DNA from: Flagellimonas algicola
GTDB taxonomy: Bacteria; Bacteroidota; Bacteroidia; Flavobacteriales; Flavobacteriaceae
DNA length: 64,000 bases
NCBI RefSeq assembly: GCF_005937185.1
Contig: NZ_VCNI01000001.1
Coordinates: 554,657-618,656, forward strand
Direction of reading: 5' to 3'
Part shown: positions 11,279 to 14,008 of the stretch, piece after piece
Layout of the letters: the number at the start of each line of letters is the position of its first letter
How positions within the stretch are numbered: the stretch's first letter is position 1
The notes under the pieces: generated by a model
Told to the model about the DNA's origin: nothing
Seen by the model: only the letters and a program-made list of their open reading frames with translations
The model's database searches: none
Program-made: the position numbers and the translations under genes

Positions 11279-12067
11279 TTGGGAACTAGGGAGTTATTAA
11301 CATATTTGGAAAAACTTGAAATTGGATTGAGCAGCTTCTCGTATGAGGAACTGGGAACAGAAGAAGCAGGAAAACTTAAGCGCTCTTTCGATATTTTTAG
11401 AACTGGACTGGAAGACAAAGTCTTTGGTGTTCCAGAAATGAAACAGTTGGATGTGATCTACGAGCAAGTGGGGATCCAGGCTTCGTCTTCTTCGCTTATT
11501 GATGAGAGCTTTACCAAAGCCGATTCAATAACTCAGTTGTTAACCCTGATAGCGCTTTTGGACAAGACCAACTTGGATCAACGGCAAAGAGAGATTGTAA
11601 GGGCATTGCATAAAGTTGGAAAACGGTTAAAAAATGATGACTCGGATCAATCCAAAACCACAGTCCAGAATAACCAATTACTGATTGGGAAAAACCTCGA
11701 ATCCTTGATGACCACATCAAAGGTCAATTTAAAACCGGTTTTGGAGGAATGCATGGGCCAAATGGAGCTTTTGGAGGAGTTGGTTCGAATTTATAAGCAG
11801 AATGTCTTGGAGTTTATTGGAAAGATCAAAGTGCATCTTCAAACTGAGAATTTCCGAGGGGTAGATTTTGCCTGTCAAAAGATACAGGCCTGTCTTAAAA
11901 TGATGAAAACCGTTAGTTTACTGGAGATTACCGAACAAATGAGTACGGTCTGCAAGACGGATAATGACATAAAATACTTAAATTTCCTATACCAACAGTT
12001 CTTGGTAGAGTACCCAAAAGTTGAGGAATTGGTCGATTTTGAAATTGATGTCCTCAGAAATATGTAA
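11279..12067 (+). CDS. hypothetical all-helical protein
   Basis: 262 residues, TTG start (no ATG is available; an upstream in-frame stop at 11255 limits extension). Predicted almost entirely alpha-helical with no membrane segment: heptad-like Leu/Ile spacing runs from ELLTYLEKLEIGL through to the C-terminal FLYQQFLVEYPKVEELV. The central stretch (ITQLLTLIALLDKTNLDQRQREIVRALHKVG) resembles a helical bundle of the HPt kind but lacks an obvious phospho-His motif. No family recognised. The next gene starts 8 nt downstream. Confidence 0.6.
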   Translation: MGTRELLTYLEKLEIGLSSFSYEELGTEEAGKLKRSFDIFRTGLEDKVFGVPEMKQLDVIYEQVGIQASSSSLIDESFTKADSITQLLTLIALLDKTNLDQRQREIVRALHKVGKRLKNDDSDQSKTTVQNNQLLIGKNLESLMTTSKVNLKPVLEECMGQMELLEELVRIYKQNVLEFIGKIKVHLQTENFRGVDFACQKIQACLKMMKTVSLLEITEQMSTVCKTDNDIKYLNFLYQQFLVEYPKVEELVDFEIDVLRNM

Positions 12068-12075
12068 AAACCTAT

Positions 12076-12429
12076 ATGGTCAAAAACCTTCCGGAATATC
12101 ACCAAAGTGTCTTCTTTCCTTTATTGGAGCATGCCACAGATGTGGACTGTAAGCTCATGCTAATTGACCAAATGTTGGAGATTGGGGACAAAAAGGATTT
12201 GGCCTTGCTGGAAGAACTGGAAACCCATGATAATCATAAGATCAGCACCAGAGCATTTGAAATTAGGTGTGCACTCCTGGAAAAATTGGGAATTGCCGAT
12301 CCATCAGAAAAAACACGTTTGCCCATGGACTTGTGCTTTATCTACGAAGAGTTCAATATAGAGCCTTCTGATGTGGATCCCGATCTGGATATGGACTTCG
12401 GCGTTCCTTTGGATATCTTGGATTCCTAG
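12076..12429 (+). CDS. HEAT-repeat-like hypothetical protein
   Basis: 117 residues. Two helix-turn-helix units (about residues 10-60) look like HEAT repeats: LIDQMLEIGDKKDLALLEEL followed by ISTRAFEIRCALLEKLG. The C-terminal 30 residues are acidic (SDVDPDLDMDFG). Only 8 nt separate it from the helical gene upstream, so they probably form a two-gene operon and may act as partners. Function unknown. A minus-strand frame overlaps its last third (12304-12585); I favour this plus-strand frame because of the operon spacing. Confidence 0.6.
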   Translation: MVKNLPEYHQSVFFPLLEHATDVDCKLMLIDQMLEIGDKKDLALLEELETHDNHKISTRAFEIRCALLEKLGIADPSEKTRLPMDLCFIYEEFNIEPSDVDPDLDMDFGVPLDILDS

Positions 12430-12585
12430 TAGTTTGAACCATTGATTATGGTTCGCAAGTCCCACTGCTCTTGTTTTCTTACCGTTTTCGTACTTTGTAG
12501 GTCTAACAATCCATTTTCCAGAAATCCCATTAACAGACTTCACCACTAAATTCACTTGTTTTACCACAAAATATTGCCCTTTCAT
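12304..12585 (-). CDS. doubtful minus-strand ORF or gene relic
   Basis: A 93-residue frame. Its first ~54 residues (MKGQYFVVKQVNL... to HNQWFKLLG) lie in the 215-nt spacer between two plus-strand genes and read like real protein, with alternating strand residues and ordinary codon choice. The remainder is antisense to the HEAT-like gene and looks arbitrary. It may be a degraded gene whose 3' end has been lost, or chance. No family recognised. Confidence 0.25.
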   Translation of the reverse strand: MKGQYFVVKQVNLVVKSVNGISGKWIVRPTKYENGKKTRAVGLANHNQWFKLLGIQDIQRNAEVHIQIGIHIRRLYIELFVDKAQVHGQTCFF

Positions 12586-12645
12586 AATCTTTGTGTTAAG
12601 TTCACGTTATAAGTATAACCCCAAACAAAAAACCACTTAATAATT

Positions 12646-12744
12646 ATGTTATACGATACCTACGGTGAAGAATATTTGGCATTTCTTCAAGAATTAAATG
12701 AAATACTGAGCTTAAACGAACTCGCAGAGTTGGATTATTTATAG
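12646..12744 (+). CDS. micropeptide A, 32 aa
   Basis: Very short ATG frame encoding a 32-residue acidic peptide. Its core EYLAFLQELNEIL aligns without gaps to AYLSFIQDLNQML of the peptide encoded 25 nt downstream, which is the main reason to accept it as a gene: two adjacent short frames sharing Y-L-x-F-x-Q-x-L-N-x-x-L are unlikely by chance. The peptide should form one amphipathic helix; there is no signal sequence or membrane span. The pair ends at a strong terminator before rpoD. Function unknown. Confidence 0.6.
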   Translation: MLYDTYGEEYLAFLQELNEILSLNELAELDYL

Positions 12745-12769
12745 AACAAACACCCCAAAACCTTAGTTC

Positions 12770-12871
12770 ATGAAAAATCAAAACCAGGAAAACACCGCTT
12801 ATTTGAGTTTTATCCAAGATTTAAATCAAATGTTGACAGATTTTAATATCAGTCAATTAAGCCGTCCATAA
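12770..12871 (+). CDS. micropeptide B, 33 aa, paralogue of A
   Basis: ATG frame of 33 residues with a polar Asn/Gln-rich start and the shared core AYLSFIQDLNQML, followed by a short tail ending in SRP. It lies 25 nt after micropeptide A, in the same direction, and 23 nt before a GC-rich terminator hairpin. Relative to A the helix core is conserved while both ends differ, as expected for old tandem duplicates under selection on the helix. No known toxin, leader or antitoxin family comes to mind. Confidence 0.6.
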   Translation: MKNQNQENTAYLSFIQDLNQMLTDFNISQLSRP

Positions 12872-12894: not shown

Positions 12895-12924
12895 AAAAAA
12901 GGGTTGCCATCGCAACCCTTTTTT
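12895..12924. terminator. strong bidirectional intrinsic terminator
   Basis: A 13-bp perfect stem (12895-12907 with 12912-12924; A6-GGGTTGC and its complement) with a 4-nt loop. A-run and T-run flank it, so it works on both strands: it ends the micropeptide transcript on the plus strand and rpoD (stop 12948) on the minus strand. Confidence 0.85.
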
Positions 12925-12947: not shown

Positions 12948-13811
12948 TCAACCAAGATAAGACTTCAAAATCTTGCTCTTGGAAGTATGTCTTAGTTTCC
13001 GAATGGCCTTTTCCCTTATTTGACGCACCCGCTCCCTTGTCAAATCAAATGTGCTTCCTATTTCCTCCAAGGTCATGGACTGCTGATCTCCAATACCGTA
13101 GTACAAGCGAACAACATCGGCTTCTCGGGGTGATAGGGTCTCCAATGCTCTGTTGATTTCGGTATAGAGGGATTGGTGCATTAAATCCTTGTCTGGCTTT
13201 GGAGATTCGGATGAATTTAGAACATCGTAAAGGCTGGAAGTTTCTCCTTCCTTCAATGGAGCATCCATGGATACGTGTCTTCCGGTGTTCTTTAAGGATT
13301 GTTTCACTTCGGAAACGGTCATATCCAGTTCCTTGGCAATTTCTTCGGCAGAAGGGGGCCTTTCATGAGCCTGTTCCAGATAGGAAAAAGTCTTTTTGAT
13401 TTTGTTGATGGACCCAATCTTGTTCAATGGAAGTCTTACCACCCGGGACTGTTCGGCCAGAGCCTGAAGAATGGACTGTCGAATCCACCATACAGCATAA
13501 GAGATAAATTTGAACCCACGGGTCTCATCAAACCGTTGTGCAGCTTTCACTAATCCCAAATTCCCTTCATTGATCAAATCGGGTAGGGTCAATCCTTGAT
13601 TTTGATATTGTTTTGCTACAGAAACCACAAACCTTAGATTGGCGTTGGTCAACTTTTCCAAAGCAGCTTGATCACCCTCACGAATCCTTTGTGCCAATTC
13701 CACCTCTTCTTGAGCAGTAATCAGTTCAATCTTACTGATATCCTGTAAATATTTGTCAAGGGATTTTGATTCACGGTTGGTTACTTGTTTTATAATTTTT
13801 AACTGCCTCAT
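12948..13811 (-). CDS. rpoD: RNA polymerase primary sigma factor RpoD/SigA
   Basis: 287 residues from the ATG at 13809-13811; the frame extends 11 codons further, but [15 protein letters not shown] is the usual Bacteroidota start. Region 1.2 ([14 protein letters not shown]), region 2 ([38 protein letters not shown] and [15 protein letters not shown]), region 3 and region 4 with the helix-turn-helix ([27 protein letters not shown]) are all present. Region 1.1 is absent, as is normal for this phylum. It directs housekeeping transcription from TAnnTTTG promoters such as those noted here. Confidence 0.95.
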
Positions 13812-14008
13812 TGGTGTGTTTAGGATTGAAGTGAATTTAAGCATTCATAATACACTTTAAAACACAATTTTCCAAGTGCCAAATGTTATTGTTATTAAAA
13901 TGTTATTAGCAAGCAGGAAACTTATTCATTATCAGCGACCTAGGCGATTGTTGATAGTATTTTAAAAGAAATGCGACAACATTACTCAACCCGAGTGTAA
14001 AAAACCGC

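Follow-up and report, generated by a model that had tools for sequence, protein, structure and literature searches.

Introduction

Several small proteins acting on sigma factors or on the transcription machinery have been described. CsfB of Bacillus is a small sigma-factor inhibitor (PMC5890618); an anti-sigma-like or cofactor-like role is considered below for a pair of micropeptides, P1 and P2. The structure of CsfB is solved and its function is known (PMC5890618), and a profile search of the PDB revealed no relation between it and the peptides. CsfB is longer than P1 and P2 and binds zinc. CrsL of Mycobacterium, a recently found partner of the transcription machinery, resembles the pair in being very small (5.7 kDa; PMC12709188); however, it is intrinsically disordered, was found through CarD and is actinobacterial, unlike P1 and P2 (PMC12709188). 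Crl, Rsd, AsiA and Fin are small sigma-binding regulators and possible functional models for the pair. They exceed P1 and P2 in length by a factor of two to four or more, and to our knowledge none of them forms a tandem paralogous pair of 32-33 aa. A second RpoD in Flavobacteriaceae, like the RpoD2 described here, has been reported for Dokdonia; its promoter sequence is stated as unknown, and unlike the present case, no micropeptides are described in the relevant sections of that report (PMC3587595). No description of P1 or P2 was found in the open-licence literature searched.

The locus analyzed here lies in a 64,000-nt stretch of the Flagellimonas algicola genome (NZ_VCNI01000001.1, positions 554,657 to 618,656 of the forward strand), hereafter called the window, and all coordinates refer to it unless another genome or locus is named. 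The features of the locus are as follows.

11279-12429, + strand: neighbouring unit of two genes (262 aa and 117 aa), outside the P1-P2 unit
12538-12568, + strand: TTTCACMAC-type direct repeat in two copies 21 nt apart, the second ending in ACCACA (12563-12568); candidate regulator site
12574-12604, + strand: putative promoter of the TTG/TAnnTTTG type, with -33 TTG (12574-12576), 20 nt, and -7 TAAGTTCA (12597-12604); promoter role inferred
12646-12744, + strand: P1 micropeptide gene, 32 aa, MLYDTYGEEYLAFLQELNEILSLNELAELDYL; 8 acidic and 0 basic residues
12770-12871, + strand: P2 micropeptide gene, paralogue of P1, 33 aa, MKNQNQENTAYLSFIQDLNQMLTDFNISQLSRP
12895-12924, both strands: bidirectional intrinsic terminator, perfect 13-bp stem and 4-nt loop
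12948-13811, - strand: RpoD2 (287 aa), a paralogous second sigma factor of primary type, with Sigma70 r1.2, r2, r3 and r4; convergent with P1-P2
14057-15568, + strand: ResIII/DEAD-type helicase (Pfam), on the far side of RpoD2; syntenic landmark matched in 75 of 80 named loci

Paralogy and purifying selection of P1 and P2

The initial annotation, made from sequence alone, had proposed two ATG frames of 32 and 33 aa at 12646-12871, 25 nt apart, and this was confirmed at the same coordinates: both frames begin with ATG, and 25 nt separate the P1 stop codon from the P2 start. In the alignment of P1 and P2, the core Y-L-x-F-x-x-x-L-N-x-x-L is free of gaps, which occur only before it. The annotation had given this core as Y-L-x-F-x-Q-x-L-N-x-x-L; the alignment of the core held, but the family as a whole does not conserve the Q. 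The wider core common to both peptides across the family is Y-x-x-F-[LIV]-x-x-[LI]-N-x-[IMV]-L, and some P2s carry K instead of N. The best ungapped BLOSUM62 score between P1 and P2 was 47, which was matched by 0 of 3000 shuffles of P2. In this test, and in the hydrophobic-moment, RNA-energy and promoter-motif shuffles described below, only single-letter composition was preserved. A membrane-type stretch is absent from both peptides, as judged by sequence, and neither peptide of the window contains cysteine.

A search with a two-row profile found P1 and P2 side by side in all 36 sampled genomes of the genus Flagellimonas, including the window's own genome. Every one of these pairs is open from ATG to stop, and P2 varies at its end, with a length of 33-37 aa. 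Most changes fall on codon position 3 in both genes. Over the 36 genomes, synonymous versus non-synonymous differences per site were 0.68 versus 0.046 for P1 (pN/pS 0.068) and 0.74 versus 0.14 for P2 (pN/pS 0.19), P1 being the more conserved of the two. These results show that both frames are under strong purifying selection and behave as genes, while translation itself is inferred, without peptide or footprint data; no ribosome profiling or proteomics of a pair-carrying species was found in the open-licence literature searched.

The annotation had reasoned that paralogy of neighbouring frames implies that both are real, and had proposed to look for conserved short homologues in relatives and for synonymous excess as opposed to frame-disrupting indels. 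The inference held, according to the homologues, the purifying selection and the shuffle test. Homologues were found in all 36 genus genomes, and pairs of them in 70 of the 397 genomes of the family; change was overwhelmingly synonymous, and no genus frame was broken. Chance likeness of two random short ORFs is ruled out by the genus-wide homologues, the pN/pS values and the shuffles. P1 and P2 are genuine paralogous micropeptide genes.

Distribution of the peptides

P1 was detected at E<1e-15 in 73 of 397 sampled Flavobacteriaceae genomes, and P2 lay directly beside it in 70 of these. The count with P2 was read by eye, and the P1, RpoD2 and adjacency counts were recounted by script; weak P1 matches in G130, G239 and G316 (E 0.008-0.01) were excluded. 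Named carriers of the pair include Allomuricauda/Flagellimonas, Croceitalea, Croceivirga, Arenibacter, Kriegella and Maribacter. A relative was encoded in 160 of 221 candidate stretches, and the best 80 of the 160 were kept as named loci, which overlap in part with the genus genomes. All 80 contain both P1 and P2, P2 being recognized by regular expression in 72 and by reading the sequences in the other 8. The regular expressions missed some P2s and one P1, and the pair of G427 was recovered by inspection.

P1 is nearly invariant between genera, its usual form being MLYDTYGEEYL.FL..LNEILS.NEL.ELDY, and P2 retains Y..F[IV]..LN.IL in most rows, plus a later I..L. With 32 residues that barely change across a branch of the family, and a length below the usual limits for genes, P1 is an example of a conserved gene that is easily missed. 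In 23 genomes of other families of the order, no peptide match was better than E 0.0126, and a class-wide sample of 395 genomes gave, at E<=0.01, only three pair-carrying members of the family and one partial match (E 0.004) in another family. Convincing relatives outside Flavobacteriaceae were thus not present in the samples searched, and within the samples used the P1/P2 family is limited to one branch of Flavobacteriaceae.

Neither peptide matched Pfam or NCBIfam at E<=1. The best hits were E 0.045 in PHROGs and E 0.52 in the PDB, so that no known relative was identified, anti-sigma and sigma-cofactor families included. Searches of 50,697 phage and 72,556 plasmid records with P1 returned nothing at E<=1.

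With two small adjoining ORFs, a toxin-antitoxin system or a bacteriocin-like pair of peptides could be considered. Against this, P1 and P2 are paralogues without a membrane-type stretch, P1 is acidic (8 acidic, 0 basic), the pair is present in every genome of the genus sample, P1 finds no match in the phage and plasmid collections, and P1 alone is retained in five genomes described below. We regard this explanation as very improbable.

Promoter, terminator and transcript

Upstream of P1, most of the 36 genus loci share a block with rigid spacing, which consists of TTTCACMAC, 12 nt, TTTCACCACAATTTATTG, 7 nt, ATAATCTTT, and then TAGRTTYACGTTATAA. The first repeat is missing in L011 and L024, and some loci deviate in later parts of the block. 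CACCACA, TTG and TAnGTTTAC are retained in most of the aligned loci from other genera. The flavobacterial promoter has been described as having the consensus TAnnTTTG (PMC9723704) and as TTG/TANNTTTG (PMC3587595), and on this basis TTG at 12574-12576 and TAAGTTCA at 12597-12604 are taken to be the promoter of the pair. ACCACA plus A/T was found upstream of P1 in 56 of 59 loci (L060, L061, L064 and L073 being excluded from this set) versus 2.6% in mononucleotide shuffles, and the other three have near versions.

The core pattern WYACCACAWWWWRTTG occurs once in the window's own genome, at the P1 promoter, and zero to four times per genome in 40 genus genomes, and therefore no regulon was found for the CACCACA element. 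A large CACCACA regulon had been considered and was rejected: the two-repeat pattern used on the own genome, spaced wrongly by 13 nt rather than 12 nt, matched only at chance level (18 matches versus 15 for the control) and missed the site itself. None of the five P1 genes that lack P2 has ACCACA in the 140 nt before it. Separately, ATAATCTTT at 12584-12592, between the -33 and -7 elements, is well conserved in the genus and mostly lost in other genera; it is possibly a second promoter or a regulator site.

The perfect 13-bp terminator that had been annotated was confirmed. Because it is terminator-like on both strands, it can serve both P2 and the facing sigma gene. The annotation had also inferred that the frames form their own transcript, and this is supported by the conserved upstream promoter block together with the terminator after P2. 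P1-P2 thus forms a small operon with its own terminator and, by inference, its own sigmaA-type promoter.

Short ORFs with their own promoter could also be leader peptides or attenuators of a downstream gene. However, there is no same-strand gene before the terminator, the next gene is opposed, and the peptides contain no single-residue run of the attenuator kind. The anatomy of the locus, a terminator followed by a facing gene, contradicts this explanation and all but excludes it.

No match to tRNA or Rfam was found in the window at the gathering scores or thresholds used, and RNAalifold gave no consensus structure over all 36 genus sequences. Over 10 genus sequences it gave -4.1 kcal/mol, and 1 of the 13 base pairs carried changes in both partners. 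Folding energies of single sequences, computed for 12 of the 36, were near those of mononucleotide shuffles.

The facing gene encodes a second primary-type sigma factor

The label rpoD initially given to the facing gene held only in part, as the gene is a paralogous second RpoD and not the canonical copy. It satisfies Sigma70 regions 1.2, 2, 3 and 4 but fails membership of the canonical clade. Its open frame, 12948-13844 (298 aa), opens 11 codons early, and homologues indicate MRQLK at 13811 as the likely start; of the 80 named loci, 71 show the start motif MRQLKIIKQ, and three of the nine where it was not found are contig ends. The canonical RpoD of the window's own genome (G000:C8:74596-75462) is 83% identical to RpoD2, and another RpoD, 82-85% identical to that of the window, was present in 22 of 22 examined genomes with the pair beside a sigma gene. 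In L195, the sole example viewed, the canonical gene has a KH/S1 (PNPase-like) gene and rpe as its flanking neighbours.

When 91 sigma sequences were placed in a tree, canonical RpoD formed one slow clade of 50 rows (support 100/100), with RpoD2 outside it. The RpoD2 of the window fell in a separate group of 23 rows (95/91) whose inner forks are partly open, and the bootstrap had not settled according to a warning from the tool. Among these 23 rows, 21 were flagged with P1 by regular expression, G427 carried the pair on inspection, and the long-branch G377 was without it. Comparison of 22 RpoD2 with 50 RpoD1 rows gave 21 diagnostic residues. Since few of these lie in promoter-contact regions, the borders of which in RpoD are our own reading, RpoD2 probably reads promoters similar to those of RpoD1.

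A related second-RpoD group (7 rows) in other Flavobacteriaceae has no peptide pair adjoining it. The Dokdonia copy may belong to this pair-less sister group, and its orthology to RpoD2 is not established. As a separate observation, the next gene in the pair-less group is of the bS21/rpsU type and runs in the same direction in 6 of 7 cases (L199, L200, L281, L282, L283 and L285), the bS21 identity having been checked with Pfam in one case. The ribosomal protein bS21 helps to hide the anti-Shine-Dalgarno sequence (PMC9976891), and a link between sigma factor and bS21 is possible in that group.

Co-occurrence of the pair and RpoD2

A sigma factor at least 86% identical to that of the window was found in 67 family genomes, all 67 of them among the 70 pair genomes. 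When G208, where RpoD2 is frameshifted, and G362, where it is split over contig ends, are counted, RpoD2 is present in 69 of 70. At >=86% identity it was found in none of the other 327 family genomes among matches down to about E 2e-159, a limit below which a truncated RpoD2 in a genome without the pair may have escaped detection. RpoD2 was on the contig of the pair, with match starts no more than 1338 nt apart, in 65 of the 67. Each of the 80 named loci has a convergent sigma gene at a distance of 262-507 nt from the start of P1, and it is >=86% identical to that of the window in 79, for three of them only via contig-end pieces of 51-141 residues.

Pair and RpoD2 are separated in G315 (by 130 kb) and G283 (other contig), and both are kept in each genome. 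RpoD2 appears to be broken by frameshifts or assembly errors in L148 (Maribacter litopenaei), and frameshifted in G208 (L339), with both peptides intact in each; decay and assembly error are both possible. In G193 (L338), P1 and P2 occupy the usual place by the helicase and RpoD2 is missing, indicating that the peptides do not strictly need RpoD2. G193 is thus a natural test case for the working of the pair in the absence of RpoD2.

In a quick gene tree of canonical rpoD (58 rows, SH-aLRT only), 28 pair genomes formed one clade (99). The association of the pair with RpoD2 is strong but phylogenetically clustered, and it may reflect one ancient linkage inherited by a clade rather than a function.

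Another explanation is that the locus works through transcription or RNA, by convergent interference with RpoD2 or as a dual-function small RNA, with the peptides being secondary. The sigma gene being convergent at every named locus, the short transcript and the conserved promoter block fit this view. On the other hand, a perfect bidirectional terminator lies between P2 and RpoD2 in the window, there is no conserved fold or Rfam match, selection is strong at the protein level, and peptides and RpoD2 persist when separated (G315, G283). We consider a role of this kind very unlikely.

Solo P1 and the history of the locus

P1 without detectable P2 was found in five genomes of three genera, namely G135, G345, G115 and, in diverged form, G079 and G307. 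A motif scan of the DNA following P1 revealed no P2 in these five genomes. The canonical RpoD is the only one in four of them, and G115, which has 8% contamination and gave not a single RpoD match, allows no genome-wide judgement. In the canonical-rpoD tree, the four formed their own clade (92), outside the pair clade. A search of 237 relatives of G135 recovered 4 of the 5 known solo-P1 genomes and no new one, all listed carriers having been searched before.

In G079 and G307, solo P1 is located inside a DUF72-thioesterase block, which lies upstream in the window, and in G115 it adjoins the helicase of the window. For this reason, these three solo-P1 sites look orthologous to the place of the pair in the window. 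Because solo P1 occurs in five genomes, four of them without RpoD2, P1 appears to be the older gene, and P2 apparently arose together with the RpoD2 locus. The simplest history is that an old solo P1 was duplicated to P1-P2 when RpoD2 joined the locus. It remains possible that P2 and RpoD2 were instead lost together.

Predicted structure and proposed function

AlphaFold2 predicted a helix at residues 8-23 of P1 (mean pLDDT 76) and 4-24 of P2 (mean pLDDT 78), the models being single helices of moderate confidence (pTM 0.41). Of 5000 shuffles of each peptide, 603 attained the hydrophobic moment of P1 and 100 that of P2. The peptides had been annotated as amphipathic helices, perhaps protein-binding or regulatory. 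A helix is predicted for both, amphipathy is only weakly supported by the hydrophobic moment, and binding or regulation remains an inference without binding, expression or phenotype data.

Our main reading is that the P1-P2 operon encodes two small helical proteins whose role is to tune the RNA polymerase bearing RpoD2. We give it a probability of roughly 0.35, that is, we hold it as a working hypothesis that could well be wrong, and the binding is inferred. Each peptide would be a short helix whose conserved Y..F...LN..L face binds a protein; P2 would have evolved from a copy of the older solo P1 upon linkage of the locus to RpoD2; and the peptides would adjust the activity or the holoenzyme share of RNA polymerase with RpoD2, in an anti-sigma-like or cofactor-like manner. 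P1 may perhaps act on RNA polymerase or canonical RpoD more generally. This reading is supported by the pN/pS values, the paralogy, the co-distribution with RpoD2, the co-retention in G315 and G283, the solo-P1 pattern, the rpoD tree, the helix predictions and the absence of an RNA fold. Evidence against it comes from G193, solo P1 without RpoD2, the broken RpoD2 of G208 and L148, the pair-less RpoD2 relatives (7 rows) and the unexceptional helical moment of P1.

The strongest competitor is that the peptides are real but unrelated to sigma, being helical subunits or adaptors of another complex (ribosome, protease or cytoskeleton) whose nearness to RpoD2 was inherited. In favour of this, P1 persists with no RpoD2 beside it in five genomes of three genera, four of which carry canonical RpoD alone, G193 retains both peptides without RpoD2, and conservation is higher in P1 than in P2. 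In addition, the place of P1 may predate the link to RpoD2, since the solo P1 of G079 and G307 shares the DUF72-thioesterase block of the window. Against it, the co-distribution of RpoD2 and P2 is nearly perfect (69/70), both are kept when separated (G315, G283), and P2 was not found at any of the five solo-P1 loci. Because the co-distribution is largely that of one clade, and G193 and the solo-P1 genomes show the peptides to be partly independent of RpoD2, we rate this explanation about as probable as the tuning of RpoD2-bearing polymerase, and neither above even odds.

A bolder form of the tuning model, which we regard as unlikely, is that ancestral P1 would act on canonical RpoD or core RNA polymerase and that its duplicate P2 would be the dedicated partner of the incoming RpoD2. 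If true, the locus would be a two-sigma, two-peptide switch, in which the pair sets the sharing of RNA polymerase between two near-identical primary sigma factors. The RpoD2-linked pair with its near-unique promoter element offers a handle on the role of the second sigma and on the sharing of one RNA polymerase.

Upstream neighbours

A helical operon upstream had been annotated as preceding the pair. Among the 80 named loci, the two upstream genes occur at 55 and 52, and of the 25 family loci viewed with flanks of 1.5 kb just two have them, both of the Flagellimonas genus. This patchy occurrence indicates that they are not part of the P1-P2 unit. Part of the 262-aa protein (11279-12067) is similar to the C-terminal end of the hybrid histidine kinase, with HisKA, HATPase and receiver domains, that adjoins solo P1 in G115 (L262 3318-5183 (-)), which belongs to another genus. 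It is likewise similar to the C-terminal end of an ORF that adjoins the pair in G283 (L340 3087-4049 (-)). The 262-aa protein is possibly a shrunken phosphotransfer protein.
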